This document shows, in pieces, positions 22,207-34,777 of a stretch of 34,950 nt of DNA. The notes under the pieces are model-generated. The model was not told where the DNA came from, searched no databases, and was given only the letters and a program-made list of their open reading frames with translations. A program made the translations under genes and the position numbers. The DNA is from Xylanimicrobium pachnodae JCM 13526 = NBRC 107786. GTDB lineage: Bacteria; Actinomycetota; Actinomycetes; Actinomycetales; Cellulomonadaceae. Position 1 is the first letter of the stretch. The number at the start of each line of letters is the position of its first letter. The stretch lies in NCBI GenBank assembly GCA_001592145.1, contig BCWJ01000026.1, positions 1 to 34,950 on the forward strand. Reading direction: 5' to 3'.

Positions 22207-22263
22207 TCGCGCAGGATTCCGAGTGCTCGCCACCACGCGCCCACATGCTGGACAGGATGCAAC

Positions 22264-23001
22264 TCAGCCCAGCAGGACCCTGCCCACCGCGAACACGAGC
22301 ATGCCGCCCACGGCCACCGGTGTCGCCGACGCGGCCAGCCCGGCCAGGCGCCCCTGCGCCTGCGGGACCCGCTCCGCCAGCACGCGCACCGTGCCCACGC
22401 CCAGCCCGCCCGCGAGCCCGGCGACGAGCCCCGTCAACGGCTCGACCTCGGGCAGCAGCGAACCGATGGCGGCCCCCGCCACCCCCGCACCCGCGACGGC
22501 GAGCAACGCCCCCAGCCACCCGCGCGCCGCGGCGAGGGCGGACAGCGCGGCAGCCACGGCGATCGCCGTCGCCGCCGTGATCACCAGGGCCGACCCGCCC
22601 TGGGACCGCTCCGTGGCGATCCAACCCCCCGCCGCCGCGGCGACGAACGCGCCGGCCACCGACCCGCTGACCGACTCGACCAGCCGCGACCGCCCGTCAC
22701 GGCGCAGCATCTCCGCGAGGAACGCAAGCACGAGCGCCATGGCGACGACGATCGGCAGGTGGCGCAGCACCGGCTCCCCCTGGGTGCGCCAGGCCACCGC
22801 CGCCCCGCCCAGCCCGGCGCCGAGCACCACGATGGTGGCGCCGCCGTGCACGGGGGCGTCCAGGAGTCGCGACCAGCCGAGCGCCAGCAGTGCCACGAGC
22901 AGCACGATCACGCCGACCAGGGGCACCTCGCCGAAGTACGAGGCGCCGGCGACGGCGGCACTGAGGACGACGGTCGTCACGGCGCGGGTGGAGAGGCTCA
23001 C
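22264..23001 (-). CDS. Multi-span membrane protein divergent from glnR
   Basis: 245 residues, almost entirely hydrophobic with eight or nine probable spans rich in Ala, Gly and Val, and short loops carrying Arg ([28 protein letters not shown]). No family or motif is recognised. The start is the GTG at 23001, preceded at 7 bases by GATACT and without a ribosome site. It shares the 106-bp upstream region with glnR, so it may respond to the same control, but it has no ammonium-transporter signature. Confidence 0.7.
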
Positions 23002-23058
23002 GGTGTCGAGTATCGCGGACTGGTCACCCGACGTGCTCGCGAGTGCGGTGCGGGACGG

Positions 23059-23064
23059 TAGTTT
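23059..23064 (+). promoter_or_regulatory. Possible -10 box TAGTTT of glnR
   Basis: TAGTTT in the divergent region would give a leader of about 37 bases that contains the GGGAGGA ribosome site. No convincing -35 is seen. Confidence 0.3.
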
Positions 23065-23107
23065 TGGCGACACGCCGCGACACGCACCGGCCAGGGAGGA
23101 AGACACG

Positions 23108-23836
23108 ATGGCCGACCTCCTGCTGCTCACGCCCGCAACGGGCGCCTCCGCCGAGATCGTCCCGGCGCTCGGTCTGCTCTCGCACCGGGTCCGGGTGCTC
23201 CCGCTGGAGCCACCCACGCTCTCGGACACCGACGACGCCGACGTCGTGCTCGTCGACGCCCGCCGCGACCTGGCCGGCGCGCGCAGCACCTGCCGCCTGC
23301 TCGCCGCGATGGACCTGCCGGTCCCGACGGTGCTGGTGCTCACCGAGGGCGGCCTGACCGCCGTCACGCACGAATGGGGCGCCGCCGACGTGGTCCTGGC
23401 GCAGGCGTCGCCCGCGGAGGTCGAAGCGCGCCTGCGCCTGGCCGTCGAGCGAGCCCGCCACGGTAGCGTCGACGACGCCCCCGAGGAGATCTCCGCGGGG
23501 GATCTGACGATCGACGCTGGCGGGTACACGGCCCGGCTGCGCGGCCACCCGATCGACCTGACCTACAAGGAGTTCGAGCTGCTCAAGTACCTGGTGCAGC
23601 ACCCGGGCCGCGTCTTCACCCGCGCCCAGCTCCTCCAGGAGGTGTGGGGCTACGACTACTACGGGGGCACCCGCACGGTGGACGTGCACGTGCGGCGACT
23701 GCGCGCCAAGCTCGGCCCGGAACGCGAACAGCTCATCGGCACGGTCCGCAACGTCGGCTACCGGTTCGACCCGCCCAAGGACCGCGTCGGCAAGCCGGCC
23801 GACGCCGCCCCCGCGACAGACAGGACCGCTCCATGA
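23108..23836 (+). CDS. glnR: Orphan response regulator GlnR (nitrogen control)
   Basis: This 242-residue OmpR-type regulator closely matches actinobacterial GlnR. The receiver domain starts [24 protein letters not shown] and has the lone Asp50 in [11 protein letters not shown], used for dimerisation rather than phosphorylation in GlnR. The winged-helix domain contains [22 protein letters not shown] and [18 protein letters not shown]. GlnR switches genes for ammonium uptake and assimilation. GGGAGGA lies 7 bases before the ATG. No sensor kinase is nearby, as expected for an orphan. It overlaps the hydrolase gene by ATGA. Confidence 0.92.
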
Positions 23837-26357: not shown

Positions 26358-26828
26358 TCAGCCGCGCAGCTCGACCACCAGCTCGACCTCGACCGGCGAG
26401 TCCAGCGGCAGCACCGCGACGCCGACGGCGGAACGGGCATGCACCCCGGCATCGCCGAAGATCTCGCCCAGCACGTTCGACGCACCGTTGATGACGCCCG
26501 GCTGCCCGGTGAACGCCGGGTCGCTGGCCACGAAGCCCACCACCTTCACGACGCGCACGACGTCGTCGAGCGAGCCGACCAACGACCGGACCGCGGCAAG
26601 GGCGTTGAGCGCGCACAGGCGCGCGTACCCGGCCGCGGCCTCGGGATCCACCAGGCCGGCGCCGGTGCCCACCTTGCCCGTGCCCGGCAGCGCGCCGTCC
26701 ACGAACGGCAGCTGCCCCGACGTGTACACGTACCGTCCGGTGCGCACCGCGGGCACGTACGCCGCGACCGGCGCCGCGACGTCGGGCAGGGCGATGCCGA
26801 GCTCCGCGAGGCGTGCCTCGGCGCTCAT
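26358..26828 (-). CDS. RidA/YjgF family protein
   Basis: This 156-residue protein has the RidA (YjgF/Rid) fold: GRYVYTSGQLPFVDG near the start, LNALAAVRSLVGSLDDVVRVVKVVGFVAS and the closing PVEVELVVELRG. RidA proteins hydrolyse reactive enamine/imine intermediates such as 2-aminoacrylate. The conserved Arg that defines true RidA is not obvious (the late segment is VHARSAVGVAVLPLDSPVEVE), so it may belong to another Rid subgroup. Its ATG overlaps the DUF4177 stop by ATGA. The gene converges on crp. Confidence 0.88.
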   Translation of the reverse strand: MSAEARLAELGIALPDVAAPVAAYVPAVRTGRYVYTSGQLPFVDGALPGTGKVGTGAGLVDPEAAAGYARLCALNALAAVRSLVGSLDDVVRVVKVVGFVASDPAFTGQPGVINGASNVLGEIFGDAGVHARSAVGVAVLPLDSPVEVELVVELRG

Positions 26829-26989
26829 GCGTCGCCGCGCGGGCGCTTGAGGTAGGCCACCAGCCCGGTGCCGTCCGGGCCGGGAACCACCTGGACCAGC
26901 TCCCACCCGTCGGCGCCCCACTGGTCCAGGATCGCCTTGGTGTTGTGAATGATCAGGGGGATCGTTGCGTACTCCCACGTCGTCGCCAT
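26825..26989 (-). CDS. DUF4177 domain mini-protein
   Basis: This 54-residue protein, with WEYATIPLIIHNTKAILDQWGADGWELVQVVPGPDG, matches the short DUF4177 family of unknown function that commonly precedes a RidA gene in actinobacteria near nth and crp. TACTGT lies 6 bases before the ATG without a ribosome site, so the DUF4177-RidA mRNA is probably leaderless. Confidence 0.88.
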   Translation of the reverse strand: MATTWEYATIPLIIHNTKAILDQWGADGWELVQVVPGPDGTGLVAYLKRPRGDA

Positions 26990-26995
26990 GAACCA

Positions 26996-27001
26996 ACAGT
27001 A
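26996..27001 (-). promoter_or_regulatory. -10 box TACTGT, leaderless start of DUF4177
   Basis: TACTGT lies 6 bases before the ATG at 26989. The divergent PBP promoter is 72 bases away. Confidence 0.45.
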
Positions 27002-27072
27002 GCGGGGGCGCTCCACAGGACCTGCACAGTGATTCCCCGCCTCACCACCCGCGCGACGACGCCGCGACCACG

Positions 27073-27078
27073 TACGCT
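27073..27078 (+). promoter_or_regulatory. -10 box TACGCT, leaderless start of the PBP gene
   Basis: TACGCT lies 7 bases before the ATG at 27086. The same hexamer precedes fbiA and nth. Confidence 0.45.
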
Positions 27079-27085
27079 CGACGCC

Positions 27086-29437
27086 ATGGCGAGACCCGCG
27101 ACACCACACGAGCCACGGCGCATCACCCGGACCATCCCTGCGGCACAGCTCGTGGCGTTGCTCGCGGCGTTCATCCTGGTGGCCACTGCCGGTGGCGTGC
27201 TGGCCGCCGGCCTGGTGATCCCCGTCGCAGCGGGCGCCAACAGCGCGACCGACAGGTCGCTGGCGCTGTTCGACGAGGTGCCGGACGAGCTCAAGCCGGG
27301 CCCGCTCTCGCAGGCGTCGTTCATGTACGCGTCCGACGGCTCGCTGCTGGCCACGTTCTACGCCCAGAACCGCATCGTCGTCCCGCTCGACCAGGTGTCC
27401 GAGCCGATGCAGCACGCCGTCATCGCCATCGAGGACGAACGGTTCTACCAGCACGCCGGCGTCGACCCGCGCGGCCTGGTGCGGGCGTTCGTCAACAACG
27501 CGCTCGACAAGCCCCAGCAGGGCGCCTCGACGCTGACACAGCAGTACGTCAAGAACGTGCTCATCGACGAGGCCGAGCAGTCAGGCGACCCGTTCGGCGT
27601 CATCGAGGCCCGCGAGGACTCGATCGCGCGCAAGGCACGCGAGATGAAGCTGGCCATCGCCATCGAGCAGCAGATGTCGAAGGACGAGATCCTCCAGGGC
27701 TACCTCAACGTCGCCCAGTTCGGCACCTACAGCGTGTACGGCGTCGAGACGGCCGCGCGCTACTACTTCAGCAAGTCCGCCAAGGACCTCAGCATCGTCG
27801 AGGCCGCGACCATCGCGGGCATCACCAAGGCACCGTCCCGGTACGACCCCTCAGTCCCCGACAACCTGGAGATCGCCCAGCAGCGGCGGGACATCGTCAT
27901 CCGGAAGATGTGGGGCCTCGGCTACATCAGCACGGAGGACCGCGACGCCGCCCTGGCCACGCCCCTGGCCGACACCCTGCACATCACGCCCGTGCCCACG
28001 GGCTGCCAGTCCTCGGGCGGCTCGGCGTTCTTCTGCTCCTACGTGATCGCCGAGATCATGAACAGCCCCGAGTTCGGCGAGACCAAGGAGGAACGCCAGG
28101 AGCTCCTGAACCGCGGCGGCCTGAAGATCCACACCACGCTCGACGCCGCCAAGCAGGCCGCGGCAGCAGAGATCATCAGCGCACGCGTCCCCGCGGCCAA
28201 CGAGGCCGGGCTCGACGCCGCCGTGGTCACCGTGGAACCCGGCACCGGGAAGATCCTGGCGATGGCCCAGAACATCCCGTACGACGCCACCACCGACCCG
28301 GCGCCCGGTACGACGTCCGTGAACTACTCGGCCGACCCGCTGCACGGCGCGTCCAAGGGCTTCCAGCCCGGCTCGAACTTCAAGCCGTTCGTGCTCGCCC
28401 AATGGCTCAAGGAGGGGCACACGCTCAACGAGACCGTCAACGCGAACCGGGTCGAACGGCCCGGAAGCGCGTGGCACTCGTCGTGCAGCAGGCTCGGCAA
28501 CGACTCGTGGGGACCGCGGAACGCCGAGGGCAGCGCCGGCGGCAACATCTCCGTGTACCGGGCCACGTACGAGTCCGTGAACACGGCCTACGCGACCATG
28601 TCCACCAAGATCGACCTGTGCGGGCTGCGGAACACCGCCTGGGACATGGGCTTCCGCCCCACCACGAAGACCGATCCCACCACGACCGTGTTCAACCCGA
28701 CGGTGGACGACATCCAGATCCGGCCCTCCATGATCCTCGGCACGCAGACGACGTCGCCGCTCCAGCTCGCCGCGGCGTTCGGCACCCTGGCCAGCAACGG
28801 CACCTACTGCTCGCCTGTCGCGATCACCCAGGTGCTCAAGCCCGACGGGTCCGAGATCCCCGTGCCGTCCGCGAACTGCAACCCCAACGCGCTGGCCCCC
28901 AACATCGCCGCCACCGTCGTCGACGCCATGCAGAAGGTGTTCACCGAACGCCGCGGCACCGCCTACGGCAACGCACTGCCCGACGGCCGCGTCGCGGCCG
29001 GCAAGACGGGCACCAGCAACGGCTCCGCGCAGACCTGGTTCACCGGCTTCACCCCGCAGCTCGTGACCACCGTGTGGGTGGGTGAGGCCGACGGCGAGGT
29101 CGAGCACTTCGGCATCCGGTTCAACGGGCAGTACATCCCCACCCTGTACGGCAGCACCGTGGCCGCGCCGGTGTGGCAGGAGTACATGTCCCGAGCGCTC
29201 GACGGCATGCCGCACGTGGACTTCCCCGCCGCGGACCCCGCCCTGGTGGGCCGCGCCCCCGCACCCGTGGTGACCACGCCGCCCGCATCGGACACCGACT
29301 CGCCGCCCACCATCGAGCCCGGACCGGACGGGCCGGGAGCCGGGGACGGCACCAAGTCGGGGAACAACGGGAACGGGAACGGGAACGGCAACGGGAACGG
29401 GCGGGGCAACGGCGGCGGCGACGGGGGCGAGAACTGA
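27086..29437 (+). CDS. Bifunctional class A penicillin-binding protein (transglycosylase/transpeptidase)
   Basis: This 783-residue protein builds peptidoglycan at the outer membrane face. A signal anchor (about 18-45) precedes a GT51 glycosyltransferase domain with the catalytic Glu in IEDERFYQHAGVDPRGLVRAF and the QGASTLTQQYVKN motif. The transpeptidase domain has SNFK as SxxK, SVNTAYA as SxN and AGKTGTSNGSAQTWF as KTG. No PASTA domains are present. The tail is Pro/Thr-rich and then Asn/Gly-rich from a 6-bp repeat. The last 4 bases can overlap the next gene. Actinobacterial PonA-type enzymes next to metallophosphoesterase and crp genes are common. Confidence 0.93.
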   Translation: MARPATPHEPRRITRTIPAAQLVALLAAFILVATAGGVLAAGLVIPVAAGANSATDRSLALFDEVPDELKPGPLSQASFMYASDGSLLATFYAQNRIVVPLDQVSEPMQHAVIAIEDERFYQHAGVDPRGLVRAFVNNALDKPQQGASTLTQQYVKNVLIDEAEQSGDPFGVIEAREDSIARKAREMKLAIAIEQQMSKDEILQGYLNVAQFGTYSVYGVETAARYYFSKSAKDLSIVEAATIAGITKAPSRYDPSVPDNLEIAQQRRDIVIRKMWGLGYISTEDRDAALATPLADTLHITPVPTGCQSSGGSAFFCSYVIAEIMNSPEFGETKEERQELLNRGGLKIHTTLDAAKQAAAAEIISARVPAANEAGLDAAVVTVEPGTGKILAMAQNIPYDATTDPAPGTTSVNYSADPLHGASKGFQPGSNFKPFVLAQWLKEGHTLNETVNANRVERPGSAWHSSCSRLGNDSWGPRNAEGSAGGNISVYRATYESVNTAYATMSTKIDLCGLRNTAWDMGFRPTTKTDPTTTVFNPTVDDIQIRPSMILGTQTTSPLQLAAAFGTLASNGTYCSPVAITQVLKPDGSEIPVPSANCNPNALAPNIAATVVDAMQKVFTERRGTAYGNALPDGRVAAGKTGTSNGSAQTWFTGFTPQLVTTVWVGEADGEVEHFGIRFNGQYIPTLYGSTVAAPVWQEYMSRALDGMPHVDFPAADPALVGRAPAPVVTTPPASDTDSPPTIEPGPDGPGAGDGTKSGNNGNGNGNGNGNGRGNGGGDGGEN
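29369..29398 (+). repeat. 6-bp tandem repeat in the PBP tail
   Basis: Five units of GGGAAC or GGCAAC encode the alternating Asn-Gly tail. Changes in copy number would alter tail length in frame. Confidence 0.85.
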
Positions 29438-31260: not shown

Positions 31261-31352
31261 GGTTCTGGAGTTCAGCGTCTGGCAGTTCTGGAACTAAGCA
31301 TCCGGCAGTTCTGGAGTTCATGGACCGGTGGTTCTGGATCTCGCGTAGTCTT
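31261..31352 (+). repeat. Four direct repeats of 23-bp period upstream of the first AAA/DUF4143 gene
   Basis: Units start at 31261, 31284, 31307 and 31330 with no spacers. Their shared core is (A/G)GTTCTGGA; units 1-3 also share the following (G/A)(T/C)T(C/A)A and end in C(T/C)GG(C/T). Unit 4 has decayed after the core and contains the -10 box of the gene. The layout suits an operator or iteron array. Confidence 0.88.
31346..31351 (+). promoter_or_regulatory. -10 box TAGTCT, leaderless start of the first AAA/DUF4143 gene
   Basis: TAGTCT lies in repeat unit 4, exactly 6 bases before the GTG at 31358, with no ribosome site. Confidence 0.5.
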
Positions 31353-31357
31353 GCCTG

Positions 31358-32635
31358 GTGAGCGACTCAGCCAACCGCCTGGTACCCAGACGGATTCTTG
31401 ACGTGGCTCTCCAGCGCCACAGCGAGAGCCCCGTCCTCCTCCTGGAAGGCCCCCGTGCTGTCGGCAAGTCGACTCTGCTGAGGCAGCTGGCCGACCGGGT
31501 CGGAGGCCGGATCCTCGATCTCGACGACCTCGATACCCGAACGGCCGTCGCGCGCGACCCCGCCACCATGATCGACGGCGACCAGGTGGTCCTCATCGAT
31601 GAGTACCAGCACGCCACGGTCGTCCTCGACGCGATCAAGGCGAGACTCAACACCACCGGGCGCCCGGGTCAGTTCATCCTCACGGGCTCCGCGCGCCACG
31701 AAGCGCTGCCGCGGGCAGCGCAAGCCCTCACCGGACGCCTCCAACGGCTGCCCGTCCTGCCGCTCGCCCAGTCGGAGCTCCACGGCGTGCGCGCCGACCT
31801 GCTGCACCGGCTCCTGACCGATCCGGACGCCGTCGTCGCGGCCGCTGCACGGTCCACATCGGCCACGGCTCGCGATGACTACGCAGCCATGGTCGCTCGC
31901 GGCGGCTTCCCCATGGTTCTCACTGCCGCGACCGACCGCGCCCGCGGGCGCTGGATTGACGACTACGTGCGGCTCACCCTTGAGCGTGACGCGCAGGAGC
32001 TGTCGAAGGTTCGCCAAGCCCACACCCTCCCGCTCATCCTTGAACGGGCAGCCGGCCAGACCGCGCAGGTTCTCAACACCGCCCGGATGGCCGACGCGAC
32101 GGGCATCGACGGCAAGACCGCACGGGACTACCTCCGCCTGCTCGAGGCCGTCTTCCTTCTGCGCATCCTCCCCGCGTGGGATCGCACCCTGACCAAGCGA
32201 ACCAACGCCCGCCCCAAGGTCCATATGCTCGACACCGGCGTCTCCTCTCGTCTGCTTCGCCTGACGCCAGAGAAGCTCGCCCGTCGCGAGCCAGCCGCGC
32301 TCACCGAGTTCGGTCACGCCCTGGAGACCTTCGCCGTCGGGGAGATCCTCAAGGAAGCCAGCTGGACTGACGACATCATCGGCTACGGTCACTGGCGCAC
32401 TCGCGATGACGAGGAAGTCGACCTCGTTCTCGAGTCCGACGACGGAGGCGTCATCGGGTTCGAGATCAAGGCCGCGGCCCGCGCCTCCGGCGACGACTTC
32501 GCCGGCCTCCGCAAGCTCCGCGAAGCCCTCGGGGCGACGTTCGTCGCCGGCGTCGTGCTCTACACCGGACCCCGGAGCTACACATACGACGACCGACTTC
32601 ATGTCATGCCGATCGACCGCATCTGGACACCGTGA
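31358..32635 (+). CDS. AAA-type ATPase with C-terminal DUF4143 domain (first copy)
   Basis: 425 residues. The N-terminal AAA_14 domain has Walker A GPRAVGKST (31-39), Walker B VVLIDEYQ (Asp81, Glu82) and the sensor-like FILTGSARHEA. The middle is helical with a possible winged helix (QTAQVLNTARMADATGIDGKTARDYLRLLEAVFLL, about 235-268). The C-terminal DUF4143 domain keeps a PD-(D/E)XK-like core, EEVDLVLE (Asp355) and GFEIK (Glu369, Lys371), so nuclease activity is possible. The family is widespread, patchily distributed and not understood. It is flanked by the 23-bp array upstream and a complex hairpin downstream. Moderate GC and its place after tRNA-Pro point to transfer. Confidence 0.9.
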   Translation: MSDSANRLVPRRILDVALQRHSESPVLLLEGPRAVGKSTLLRQLADRVGGRILDLDDLDTRTAVARDPATMIDGDQVVLIDEYQHATVVLDAIKARLNTTGRPGQFILTGSARHEALPRAAQALTGRLQRLPVLPLAQSELHGVRADLLHRLLTDPDAVVAAAARSTSATARDDYAAMVARGGFPMVLTAATDRARGRWIDDYVRLTLERDAQELSKVRQAHTLPLILERAAGQTAQVLNTARMADATGIDGKTARDYLRLLEAVFLLRILPAWDRTLTKRTNARPKVHMLDTGVSSRLLRLTPEKLARREPAALTEFGHALETFAVGEILKEASWTDDIIGYGHWRTRDDEEVDLVLESDDGGVIGFEIKAAARASGDDFAGLRKLREALGATFVAGVVLYTGPRSYTYDDRLHVMPIDRIWTP

Positions 32636-32637
32636 TC

Positions 32638-32700
32638 CGACGACGCGCCCGGAGCCGGAACGTCAACCACGGGGCGTCGTCGCCCGGCTCCGGTTGCTTT
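32638..32700 (+). terminator. Terminator-like hairpin with interleaved second stem
   Basis: CCGGAGCCGG (32649-32658) pairs with CCGGCTCCGG (32684-32693), followed by TTGCTTT. CGACGACGC (32638-32646) can pair with GCGTCGTCG (32674-32682). The arms are interleaved (A-B-A'-B'), so the two stems would compete or form a pseudoknot. Confidence 0.6.
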
Positions 32701-32787
32701 CGAACGGCCTTGCGCGGCGACAGAAGTCCGACCGCCGTAGCCACGACGCCGAGAACCGGATCGAGATCGTGTGGCCGCGGCCCCAGG

Positions 32788-32793
32788 TAGTCT
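32788..32793 (+). promoter_or_regulatory. -10 box TAGTCT, leaderless start of the YpeA-like gene
   Basis: TAGTCT, the same hexamer as before the first ATPase gene, lies 7 bases before the GTG at 32801. Confidence 0.45.
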
Positions 32794-32800
32794 CCCGACC

Positions 32801-33220
32801 GTGATGCGCACGTGGACCTTCGAGGAGATCACCGACGACGACGTCGACCAGGTCGTAGACCTGTGGCGCGCGTGCGAGCTGATCCGCCCGTGGAACGACC
32901 CGCACCTGGACATCGCGGACGCCCGCAGCACGCCGACGTCGACGTTCCTCGTCGCGCGCAACGCGGACGCCGTCGTCGCCTCGGCGATGGCCGCGTTCGA
33001 CGGTCACCGCGGCTGGCTGTACTACGTCGCCGTCGCGCCCGGCCTGCAGGGCAGCGGGCTCGGCCGCACAGCCGTCGACGCTGGCGAGGTGTGGCTGCGC
33101 GCGGCCGGGGCGCGCAAGGTGCAGCTCATGGTGCGCAACACCAACGAGCAGGTGATCGGCTTCTACGAACACCTGGGCTACGGCGACCAGTCGACGACGG
33201 TGCTCGGCCGTTGGTTCTGA
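32801..33220 (+). CDS. GNAT acetyltransferase, YpeA-like
   Basis: About 139 residues of a single GNAT domain that follows E. coli YpeA closely: DLWRACELIRPWNDPHLDI, AAFDGHRGWLYYVAVAPGLQGSGLGRTAV (acetyl-CoA loop QGSGLG), and KVQLMVRNTNEQVIGFYEHLGYGDQSTTVLG. The acceptor is unknown. The start is GTG-ATG (32801 or 32804); the upstream TAGTCT favours a leaderless mRNA at 32801. It sits between the two AAA/DUF4143 genes. Its codon use is as GC-rich as the host genes, unlike its island neighbours, so it may have been acquired separately. Confidence 0.9.
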   Translation: MMRTWTFEEITDDDVDQVVDLWRACELIRPWNDPHLDIADARSTPTSTFLVARNADAVVASAMAAFDGHRGWLYYVAVAPGLQGSGLGRTAVDAGEVWLRAAGARKVQLMVRNTNEQVIGFYEHLGYGDQSTTVLGRWF

Positions 33221-33414
33221 GCGCCGATGGTCTTCGACACGATCGCAGCTGCCGTCCCCGGGCTTGTCATGGCAACATCTCACCGGCCGCAGCACGCGGA
33301 GCGCCATCGGGGAGAACCCTGAATGCTCCGGCCTCGCTCGGGCGTTCCGCCGCTCAAGCGTGCCCGATGCCGGTTCGCGTCGTCGCAATCAGCCAGCCGG
33401 ATCTTGCCGGGTCC

Positions 33415-33506
33415 GACGAGACGCCTAGCCAAATGGCGACGAAACGCCTAGTAGTCGTCCGCCGATCTGCCTAGTTTGGAGCCGTCCAGATGCTAGGTTC
33501 GCCAGA
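33415..33506 (+). repeat. Four direct repeats of 23-bp period upstream of the second AAA/DUF4143 gene
   Basis: Units start at 33415, 33438, 33461 and 33484 with no spacers. Units 1 and 2 share GACGA(G/A)ACGCCTAG, unit 3 has GCCGATCTGCCTAG and unit 4 has GTCCAGATGCTAG, missing one C. The constant core is GC(C)TAG. The CTAG of unit 4 is part of the -10 box. The sequence is unrelated to the first array, but period and copy number are the same. The preceding 33221-33414 shows no gene. Confidence 0.85.
33494..33499 (+). promoter_or_regulatory. -10 box TAGGTT, leaderless start of the second AAA/DUF4143 gene
   Basis: TAGGTT overlaps the core of repeat unit 4 and lies exactly 6 bases before the ATG at 33506. 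Confidence 0.5.
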
Positions 33507-34777
33507 TGAGCTACCAGAGACGCGTGGTCGACACCTTCCTGGACGAGGCACGCGATGGACTCGTGGCCATCGCTCTCGAGGGTGCGAAGGGAGTCGGGAA
33601 GACCGCCACCGCCAGTCGGCGAGCCCAGACGGTCCTCACGATCTCCGATCCCCGTACGCGGGAGGCCGTCCGGGGGAACTACGACCTCGTGGCCCAGGCC
33701 GCACCGCCTGTCCTTATCGACGAGTGGCAGTTGGAGCCGCAGGTCTGGGACCGGGTGCGCACGGCCGTGGACGATGCCCCGCGCGAGTACGGCAGGTTCC
33801 TGCTGGCCGGCTCCGCCGACGTCACCCCCGGCACGCGTATCCACAGCGGGGCAGGCAGGATCGTCCGGCTGCTCATGCGCCCGATGTCACTGGCCGAGCG
33901 CGGCTTCGAGAGCCCGACAGTCTCGCTGAAGGAGTTGCACGCTGGGGACGCGGCGGTCAACGGTTCCACCAAGCTCGCCGTCCGCGACTACGTCGGCGAG
34001 ATCCTCCGGTCCGGGTTCCCTGGGATCCGAGACGCCCCCGATCGGTTCCGGGATCGTCAGCTCGACGGATACCTGGCCCGCATCGTCGACAGGGACCTTC
34101 AGGAGAACGGCGTCACCGTACGCCGGCCCGCGGCATTGATGTCGTGGCTCAAGGCCTACGGTGCCGCAACCGCATCGACGACCGAGTACACGAAGATCCT
34201 CGACGCTGCGACCGCTGGGGACCCCGACAAGCCGGCGCGCGCCACAGTCGACGGCTACAGGGAACACCTCAAACGGCTGTTCATCCTCGACCCGGTCGAA
34301 GCATGGACACCGGCGTTCGCGCCGCTCAAGCGACTGACCGTCTCTCCGAAGCACCACCTCGTCGACCCAGCGCTGGCGGCGCGCATGGTTGGCGTCGGCG
34401 CCCAAGGCCTCCTCCTCGGTGAAGGCGACGTGCCGTCCCCGAGCGCGGGCACATGGCTCGGCGCCTTGTTCGAGTCTCTCGCCGTGCAGTCGGTGCGCAC
34501 CTACGCGGAAGCGTTGGACGCACGCGTCGGCCACCTGCGAACCAAGAACGGAGACCGAGAGGTCGACATCATCGTCGAGACGAACGACCGACGGATCGTC
34601 GCCCTGGAGGTCAAACTCTCCGACACGATCAACGACTCAGACGTCAAGCACCTGCTCTGGCTCAAGGAACAGATGGGCGAGCTCGTTCGAGACGCCGTCG
34701 TCGTCAACACCGGGCCCTACGCGTACCGCCGCCGCGACGGCATTGCCGTCGTCCCGCTCGCCCTCCTCGGCCCGTGA
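33506..34777 (+). CDS. AAA-type ATPase with C-terminal DUF4143 domain (second copy)
   Basis: 423 residues, same architecture as the first copy but strongly diverged. It has Walker A GAKGVGKT (26-33), Walker B PVLIDEWQ (Asp72, Glu73) and FLLAGSADV. A long middle region (about 115-270) has the helical stretch RRPAALMSWLKAYGAATASTTEYTKIL. The DUF4143 domain has the PD-(D/E)XK-like pair REVDIIVE (Asp354) and ALEVK (Glu368, Lys370). The two proteins align mainly in these motifs, so they are old paralogues or separate acquisitions rather than a recent duplication. Its own 23-bp array ends at the start codon. What the ATPase does is unknown. Confidence 0.9.
   Translation: MSYQRRVVDTFLDEARDGLVAIALEGAKGVGKTATASRRAQTVLTISDPRTREAVRGNYDLVAQAAPPVLIDEWQLEPQVWDRVRTAVDDAPREYGRFLLAGSADVTPGTRIHSGAGRIVRLLMRPMSLAERGFESPTVSLKELHAGDAAVNGSTKLAVRDYVGEILRSGFPGIRDAPDRFRDRQLDGYLARIVDRDLQENGVTVRRPAALMSWLKAYGAATASTTEYTKILDAATAGDPDKPARATVDGYREHLKRLFILDPVEAWTPAFAPLKRLTVSPKHHLVDPALAARMVGVGAQGLLLGEGDVPSPSAGTWLGALFESLAVQSVRTYAEALDARVGHLRTKNGDREVDIIVETNDRRIVALEVKLSDTINDSDVKHLLWLKEQMGELVRDAVVVNTGPYAYRRRDGIAVVPLALLGP

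Follow-up and report, generated by a model that had tools for sequence, protein, structure and literature searches.

The window analysed here, 34,950 nucleotides long, is the whole of contig BCWJ01000026.1 (positions 1-34950) of Xylanimicrobium pachnodae JCM 13526 = NBRC 107786 (assembly GCA_001592145.1). Towards its end it carries two genes, gene 1 and gene 2, for proteins that combine an AAA_14 ATPase domain with a DUF4143 domain, and each gene is preceded by its own array of 23-bp direct repeats running into the -10 box of a leaderless promoter. Such arrays were found before related genes in several protein clades and phyla, and they probably serve as private operators through which each protein represses its own gene. 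The features of the locus are as follows.

Repeat arrays and genes at the locus

31262-31351, forward strand: putative operator array 1, four 23-bp direct repeats running into the -10 box
31346-31351, forward strand: -10 box TAGTCT of gene 1, followed by six bases and the GTG start at 31358; leaderless promoter, called from the sequence and a family-wide test for TANNNT
31358-32635, forward strand: gene 1, 425 aa, AAA_14, predicted winged helix and DUF4143/PD-(D/E)XK; PADLOC family PDC-S01
33414-33505, forward strand: putative operator array 2, 23-bp direct repeats with GCCTAG cores
33494-33499, forward strand: -10 box TAGGTT of gene 2, within the fourth copy of array 2, followed by six bases and the ATG start at 33506
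33506-34777, forward strand: gene 2, 423 aa, AAA_14 and DUF4143; PADLOC family PDC-S01

The cores of array 1, GTTCTGGA, start at 31262, 31285, 31308 and 31331, in steps of exactly 23 bp, and Tandem Repeats Finder listed this 23-bp array at 31262-31338. Array 2 has GCCTAG cores at 33423, 33446 and 33469, also in exact 23-bp steps, followed by a degenerate fourth copy, GCTAGG, at 33492, and is absent from the Tandem Repeats Finder list. The original prediction, made from the sequence alone, had claimed exactly four repeats before both genes; this is strictly so for array 1, but array 2 holds three exact cores and one shifted copy. The TANNNT box that it placed six bases before each start codon was confirmed at both genes. 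None of 5000 base shuffles reached the lag-23 score of either array, and when any lag from 8 to 60 was allowed the score was reached by 0/400 shuffles for array 1 and 1/400 for array 2. Since the 23-bp units are contiguous and their cores partly conserved, the arrays differ from clustered regularly interspaced short palindromic repeats (CRISPR), in which identical repeats alternate with unique spacers.

Both proteins scored above the curated Pfam cut-offs for AAA_14 and DUF4143 (69.5 and 127.5 bits for gene 1, 35.4 and 78.9 bits for gene 2). The PADLOC model PDLC04790 gave nearly full-length matches of 459 bits (gene 1) and 236 bits (gene 2), and PDC-S01 models matched both window proteins and all 44 members of alignment A3.

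Occurrence of the arrays across the family

The member set was drawn from 294 open reading frame (ORF) hits, of which 14 were dropped as truncated or without Walker A, two as duplicates and one for short upstream DNA, leaving 277; window gene 2 is counted twice in this set and in the set of 89 upstream regions described below. A repeat lag was taken to pass at a score of 15. It had been proposed that a repeat search upstream of AAA_14-DUF4143 homologues would peak at 22-24 bp, and such a peak was found, the best lag being 23 in 137 and 22 in 30 of the 277 members. The threshold was passed at lag 23 by 138/277 members and at lag 22 by 32/277, compared with a mean of 2.8 members at other lags (11, 12, 24 and 44-48 excluded as multiples or neighbours) and nine members at lag 24. 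Homologues overall do not lack arrays, although the arrays are not universal. By source, lags of 22-24 passed in 6/7 members from the own genome, 44/53 from relatives and 86/105 from the host family, as well as in 10/29 phylum-level and 27/83 cross-phylum members, the last two sets being best hits to the Pfam model or to another clade and not random samples.

Among the loci L001-L100, the best lag in the range 8-60 was exactly 23 in 55/89 upstream regions (13 ORFs dropped). Chance, or neutral local duplication near promoters, might be invoked for repeats of this kind, and 7/308 control upstream windows from the same loci did pass at lag 23; this explanation is refuted by the counts, namely the 138 passing members with their differing sequences, and by cores that change more slowly than their surroundings (see below).

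In the own genome nine DUF4143 matches were found, and a strong 23-bp array (0/500 shuffles) stands at 7/9 of these loci, including L005 and L009, whose genes are 5'-truncated. At L003 the lag score was weak (reached by 27/500 shuffles) and a CGGCT-type 23-bp series is visible by eye, while L001 has lost its 5' part and has no array (230/500 shuffles reach its score). Array-like 23-bp series before 5'-truncated or dead family genes were observed at L005:1317-1407, L009:982-1043, L019:1652-1729 and L030:1698-1780, and family genes seem to decay often. Numbers per genome vary: Algoriphagus locisalis (G533) has 22 matches, G007 has 19 and G006 has 13, and two genomes of the window's genus, G001 and G005, have none.

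Period and architecture by protein clade

Clades were defined on the protein tree of family members. Seven of them carry the 23-bp period, namely D (11/11), H (10/12), J with window gene 1 (21/23), K (7/9), L (13/13), M (22/34) and N with window gene 2 (46/49). A 22-bp period characterises clade I (13/13) and the Bacteroidota clade E (14/15), and in clade A the best lag was 32 or 33 in 8/10 members. The conserved 23-bp geometry of the original prediction is thus common to seven protein clades, but was too narrow, as arrays of 22 or 32 bp and single inverted repeats occur in other clades. Which period a gene has goes with its protein clade and not with its host. Shuffling the labels 300 times gave on average 34 changes of period on the tree (minimum 29), whereas the real labels give 10; moreover, the host family of clade I also harbours 23-bp clades, and the two periods occur together in genome G006.

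In the region where other clades have their arrays, inverted repeats above the 99th percentile of the null were found in 5/9 members of clade B, 10/14 of C, 11/20 of F, 8/17 of G and 4/10 of A. They are mostly few in the arrayed clades (D 0/11, E 0/15, I 1/13, J 0/23, N 1/49, M 3/34), with clades H (3/12), L (3/13) and K (5/9) giving a mixed picture. From 15 genomes of named loci, a search added 35 distinct members, among which a 32- or 33-bp series occurred in 10 and an inverted repeat above 60 shuffles in 22 (a few borderline members shifted between repeat runs); at least one type of site was present in 29 and none of the three types in six. In A. locisalis DSM 23445, where 18/22 matches were examined, 22-bp series, 32-bp series and inverted repeats coexist in one genome.

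Ten plasmid relatives included six with a 22-bp array and one with a 23-bp array; in those of Azotobacter and Runella the array is replaced by an inverted repeat at the start codon, and that of Thermus has neither array nor inverted repeat. In two Thermus family genes no 22-24-bp array was seen, the annotated start being doubtful in one. At three cross-phylum loci (L132, L133, L161) a TTTACATA-type repeat resembles, by eye, the reverse complement of the TATGTAAA-type unit of relatives, so that array orientation may flip.

Overlap with the promoter

In 93/137 members with 23-bp arrays a TANNNT box lies 4-9 nt before an in-frame start (16 expected from shuffles), at a distance of 6 nt in 66 and 7 nt in 20; here the start codon was picked because a box preceded it, in the shuffle control likewise, and a few of the chosen starts are visibly internal. 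The lag-23 identity is phase-locked to the start codon and extends, more weakly, into the -10 region. Operator-like sites overlap their own promoter in the window genes and in many family members with 23-bp arrays, as in autoregulated repressors. Transcripts starting at the start codon would leave the array untranscribed, and it would thus act as DNA.

This position bears on the sign of control. MalT activates from repeated boxes, and a family protein bound to its array could likewise recruit RNA polymerase to a promoter without a -35 box. MalT is among the nearest solved folds (see below), and the array lies just upstream of, and into, the -10 box at a fixed phase; in many members, however, the last copy runs into the -10 box itself, and in inverted-repeat members such as those of Azotobacter and Runella the dyad extends as far as the start codon or abuts it. 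We regard auto-activation as possible but unlikely. Self-repression is the reading that we prefer: because the last copy overlaps the -10 box of the leaderless promoter, the bound protein would exclude RNA polymerase and the gene would repress itself.

Private sequence and conservation

Four own-genome arrays were tested, and in 4/4 no mismatch-free match of the unit was found away from the own gene; the remaining matches exceeded reversed-pattern controls by at most one. The first three units of array 1 are the only mismatch-free matches of their pattern in the 4.0-Mb genome, and the mismatch-free pair of GCCTAG at array spacing, from array 2, is unique in it. For these arrays the claim that each sequence is specific to its gene was upheld, since units do not recur in the own genome beyond chance, and no mismatch-free array unit stands before an unrelated gene there. 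A regulon in the own genome was considered and rejected: the array 1 unit occurs elsewhere only at two mismatches, four times against three in the reversed-pattern control, and one-mismatch pairs of array 2 numbered two against 36 in the control.

Repeat similarity between members averaged 0.76 at protein identities of at least 80% and 0.31 at 50-60%, near the background of 0.25, which indicates that the geometry outlives the sequence. Among 206 same-genome pairs the highest unit similarity was 0.55. A host-encoded factor reading all arrays, in favour of which nothing was found, is very improbable in view of these figures, and also because the period tracks the protein clade within one host. 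The further proposal that array-protein pairs had diverged to avoid cross-talk was not established; in a matched comparison of same- and different-genome pairs at 50-80% identity (33 vs 1280 pairs) p was 0.47, a negative result. A post hoc subset at 60-80% identity (11 vs 283 pairs) gave p = 0.003, with pairs that share members and are non-independent.

Within arrays, the bases that separate the repeat cores change about three times as fast as the cores. In all 30 pairs with at least 80% identity (41 members), substitutions amounted to 169/1265 (13%) in cores, 399/1066 (37%) between cores and 857/2308 (37%) in the upstream flank, and cores were slower than between-core bases in 29/30 pairs and slower than the flank in 26/30. 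For 17 hand-picked pairs of the 30 the values were 13, 38 and 29%, respectively. The window arrays are kept in L197 and L023 while the flank differs at 31/65 and 39/80 aligned bases, so that array and gene appear to move as one unit.

Iteron-binding Rep initiators use arrays of direct repeats of about 20-23 bp together with inverted-repeat operators, and the arrays might similarly be a target or iteron-like site of the ATPase-nuclease, for homing, mobility or the start of replication, with the promoter overlap being secondary. The spacing is iteron-like, the nuclease core is conserved, relatives occur on 356 plasmid records and orphan arrays exist near L034. Against this, no Rep initiator domain was found in the Pfam scan of both window proteins, in the own genome the units were confined to the gene's own promoter, with which they are locked in phase, and a scan of L001-L100 away from gene starts gave second 23-bp arrays by L034 and L043. 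Taken together, this function appears quite improbable. The scan also hit the array of one adjacent family gene and four stretches, at L009, L017, L025 and L046, that were weak or of low complexity.

The orphan arrays (L034:843-941 and L313:14432-14656) lie between convergent genes, downstream of the family gene, in a genus relative. They consist of a copy of the gene's own 23-bp array and an adjoining 32-bp palindromic array of clade-A type, and no family gene was found behind either. At L043:311-362 a second 23-bp array with a different motif lies about 200 bp upstream of the gene's own 22-bp array.

Predicted protein architecture and candidate binder

The AlphaFold2 model of the gene 1 protein has a mean predicted local distance difference test (pLDDT) value of 91.3 and a predicted template modelling (pTM) score of 0.91. 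We read its structural elements as an AAA domain (about residues 12-140), helices (147-214), a winged helix (220-290) and a PD-(D/E)XK domain (292-417), numbered from the second codon. The last is an alpha-beta fold of strands and helices, and E322, E352, D354, E368 and K370 are invariant in the 44 sequences of alignment A3. This E..D..ExK motif is the core of PD-(D/E)XK nucleases, and sequence and fold together predict a nuclease; in L096, one of nine A1 members, the E of ExK is missing. The ATPase with a PD-(D/E)XK-like domain named in the original prediction was thus recovered, as AAA_14/DUF4143 in both proteins and as a predicted nuclease core, with a winged helix, in the gene 1 protein.

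The best solved-structure matches of the gene 1 model included the Pyrococcus ATPase 2qen (E 8e-6, TM-score 0.40), MalT, the NLR protein RPP1, Apaf-1, Avs5, Avs4, RuvB and Sso1545, all with modest TM-scores, and clamp loaders matched too. The fold suggests a likeness to MalT and other STAND ATPases. MalT binds repeated boxes and is not known to have a nuclease; it serves a regulon, whereas the window family has a single cis site. Sequence searches of the PDB gave no match for protein 2, chance-level matches only for protein 1 and P-loop stretches only with the A3 profile, and nothing convincing came from NCBIfam and PHROGs.

With respect to the part that would read the array, repeat similarity across 697 pairs was predicted by the identity of the AAA domain (standardised beta 0.27) and of the winged helix (0.26), with bootstrap 5-95% intervals above zero, and not by that of the helical region (0.09) or the nuclease (0.05). 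The highest single correlation, 0.38, was obtained for a 30-column helix-turn-helix (HTH) core.

A proposed model of self-repression

From these data we consider it likely that the winged helix of each protein recognises the array before its own gene and that the protein thereby acts as its own repressor; direct binding, the sign of control, the oligomer geometry, the immune role and the trigger are inferred. One protein would unite a STAND-like AAA ATPase, a winged helix and a PD-(D/E)XK nuclease. Each 22- or 23-bp unit repeated before the own gene would take up one subunit through its winged helix, so that several subunits form a row, in which contacts between ATPase domains probably assist. 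If the bound protein were lost or titrated away, for instance because phage infection draws it to other sites, nuclease would be made in a burst, in keeping with a putative immune role, and private unit sequences would place the many paralogues of a genome under separate control.

Several results weigh against this reading. Clades B, C and F have no 22-24-bp array, as is the case for most of G, and inverted repeats occur in 34/60 members of these four clades, which means that one subunit per unit in a row is not universal. Among the 35 further members the best lag was 22-24 in only three. A leaderless TANNNT start was not found for 44/137 arrays, and in 4/30 pairs the repeat cores were not slower than the flank. 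In the control windows lag 23 was best in 17/308 (about six expected), with lags 45 and 18 best equally often; part of this excess may be arrays of truncated family genes in the same loci. Finally, in residue-level co-variation of protein and repeat the best column reached r = 0.19 against a maximum of 0.17 in 100 permutations, and over all clades the winged helix had 0.19 pairs per column against 0.16-0.20 in other regions; in clades N and M it had 0.14 against 0.05-0.09.

A more speculative extension of self-repression, which we hold to be rather unlikely, would make the array the self-address of an immune sentinel. The ATPase-nuclease would wait on it in the form of an ordered oligomer without activity; infection, a change in nucleotide pools or foreign DNA would displace it and so turn on both transcription and nuclease. 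If true, the address would act as a compatibility group, and stockpiling many such genes would need differing addresses.

Relation to known systems and significance

We take arCOG03166 to be the same family as PDC-S01/AAA_14-DUF4143. PDC-S01 has been reported as the fourth commonest defence candidate in prokaryotes. In the portions of the following papers that were available, most such candidates are without validation (PMC12988326), PDC-S01 is the most frequent individual locus in rumen genomes (PMC13356809), and arCOG03166 is annotated as an "AAA+ superfamily ATPase fused to HTH and RecB nuclease domains", "Likely involved in defense (or some plasmid gene)" (PMC4158269). Those portions mention neither operator arrays nor an established function, and full-text literature searches, with most subscription papers and bioRxiv preprints outside their scope, returned no description of the arrays.

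The nearest regulatory analogue found is RptR, a defence-island repressor that binds three short direct repeats at its native promoter, two of which overlap the -10 box (PMC12255303). Direct repeats overlapping a -10 box are common to both; by description, however, RptR has 9-bp repeats and is a separate regulator of other defence genes, whereas in the window family the regulator would be the putative effector itself, with a site that differs from gene to gene. Restriction-modification C proteins and toxin-antitoxin operons (PMC12255303) and WYL-type regulators (PMC9122601) are further cases in which defence genes control themselves or have a regulator of their own. Those systems comprise two or more genes, whereas the window family has ATPase, nuclease and predicted DNA-binding parts in one protein. 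Autoregulation as such is well known, whereas operators of a single-gene ATPase-nuclease that are private to each member and differ in architecture between clades are not.

One study reports that TT_P0211 of Thermus thermophilus HB27 (AAA 14, DUF4143 and HTH motifs) rises 6.6-fold with a plasmid, only if Argonaute is present (PMC4406477), which may bear on the control of the family. A full-length family gene on pTT27, possibly TT_P0211, has no tandem array and has short dyads before its start, as judged by eye. A viral origin was considered and rejected: the pattern matches on viral contigs (3 and 20 stretches) encode no relative of the window proteins, and five unannotated phage records carry relatives of protein 2 at 24-31% identity.

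PDC-S01 genes are reported to be among the commonest putative defence genes in bacteria and archaea, and their control and ligand are not stated in the papers found. A gene-specific operator readable from sequence would offer a testable DNA ligand, a reporter and perhaps an on-switch for many members. Furthermore, one protein architecture with 22-, 23- or 32-bp arrays or a single inverted repeat makes a natural series for the study of protein-DNA geometry and the evolution of specificity.

Neighbouring genes and minor observations

A GNAT acetyltransferase gene follows gene 1 and lies between the two family genes. Gene 2 stands at the contig end, and a downstream partner gene, as in two-gene toxin-antitoxin systems, could lie beyond it. 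Elsewhere in the window, a frame at 26813-29437 encodes a transglycosylase-transpeptidase (penicillin-binding protein) and one at 22223-23836 has GlnR-like regulator domains, with no link to the arrays seen for either. On two plasmids, of Azotobacter and Novosphingobium (L293, L298), a gene of the HU family or for IHF-alpha lies near the family gene.

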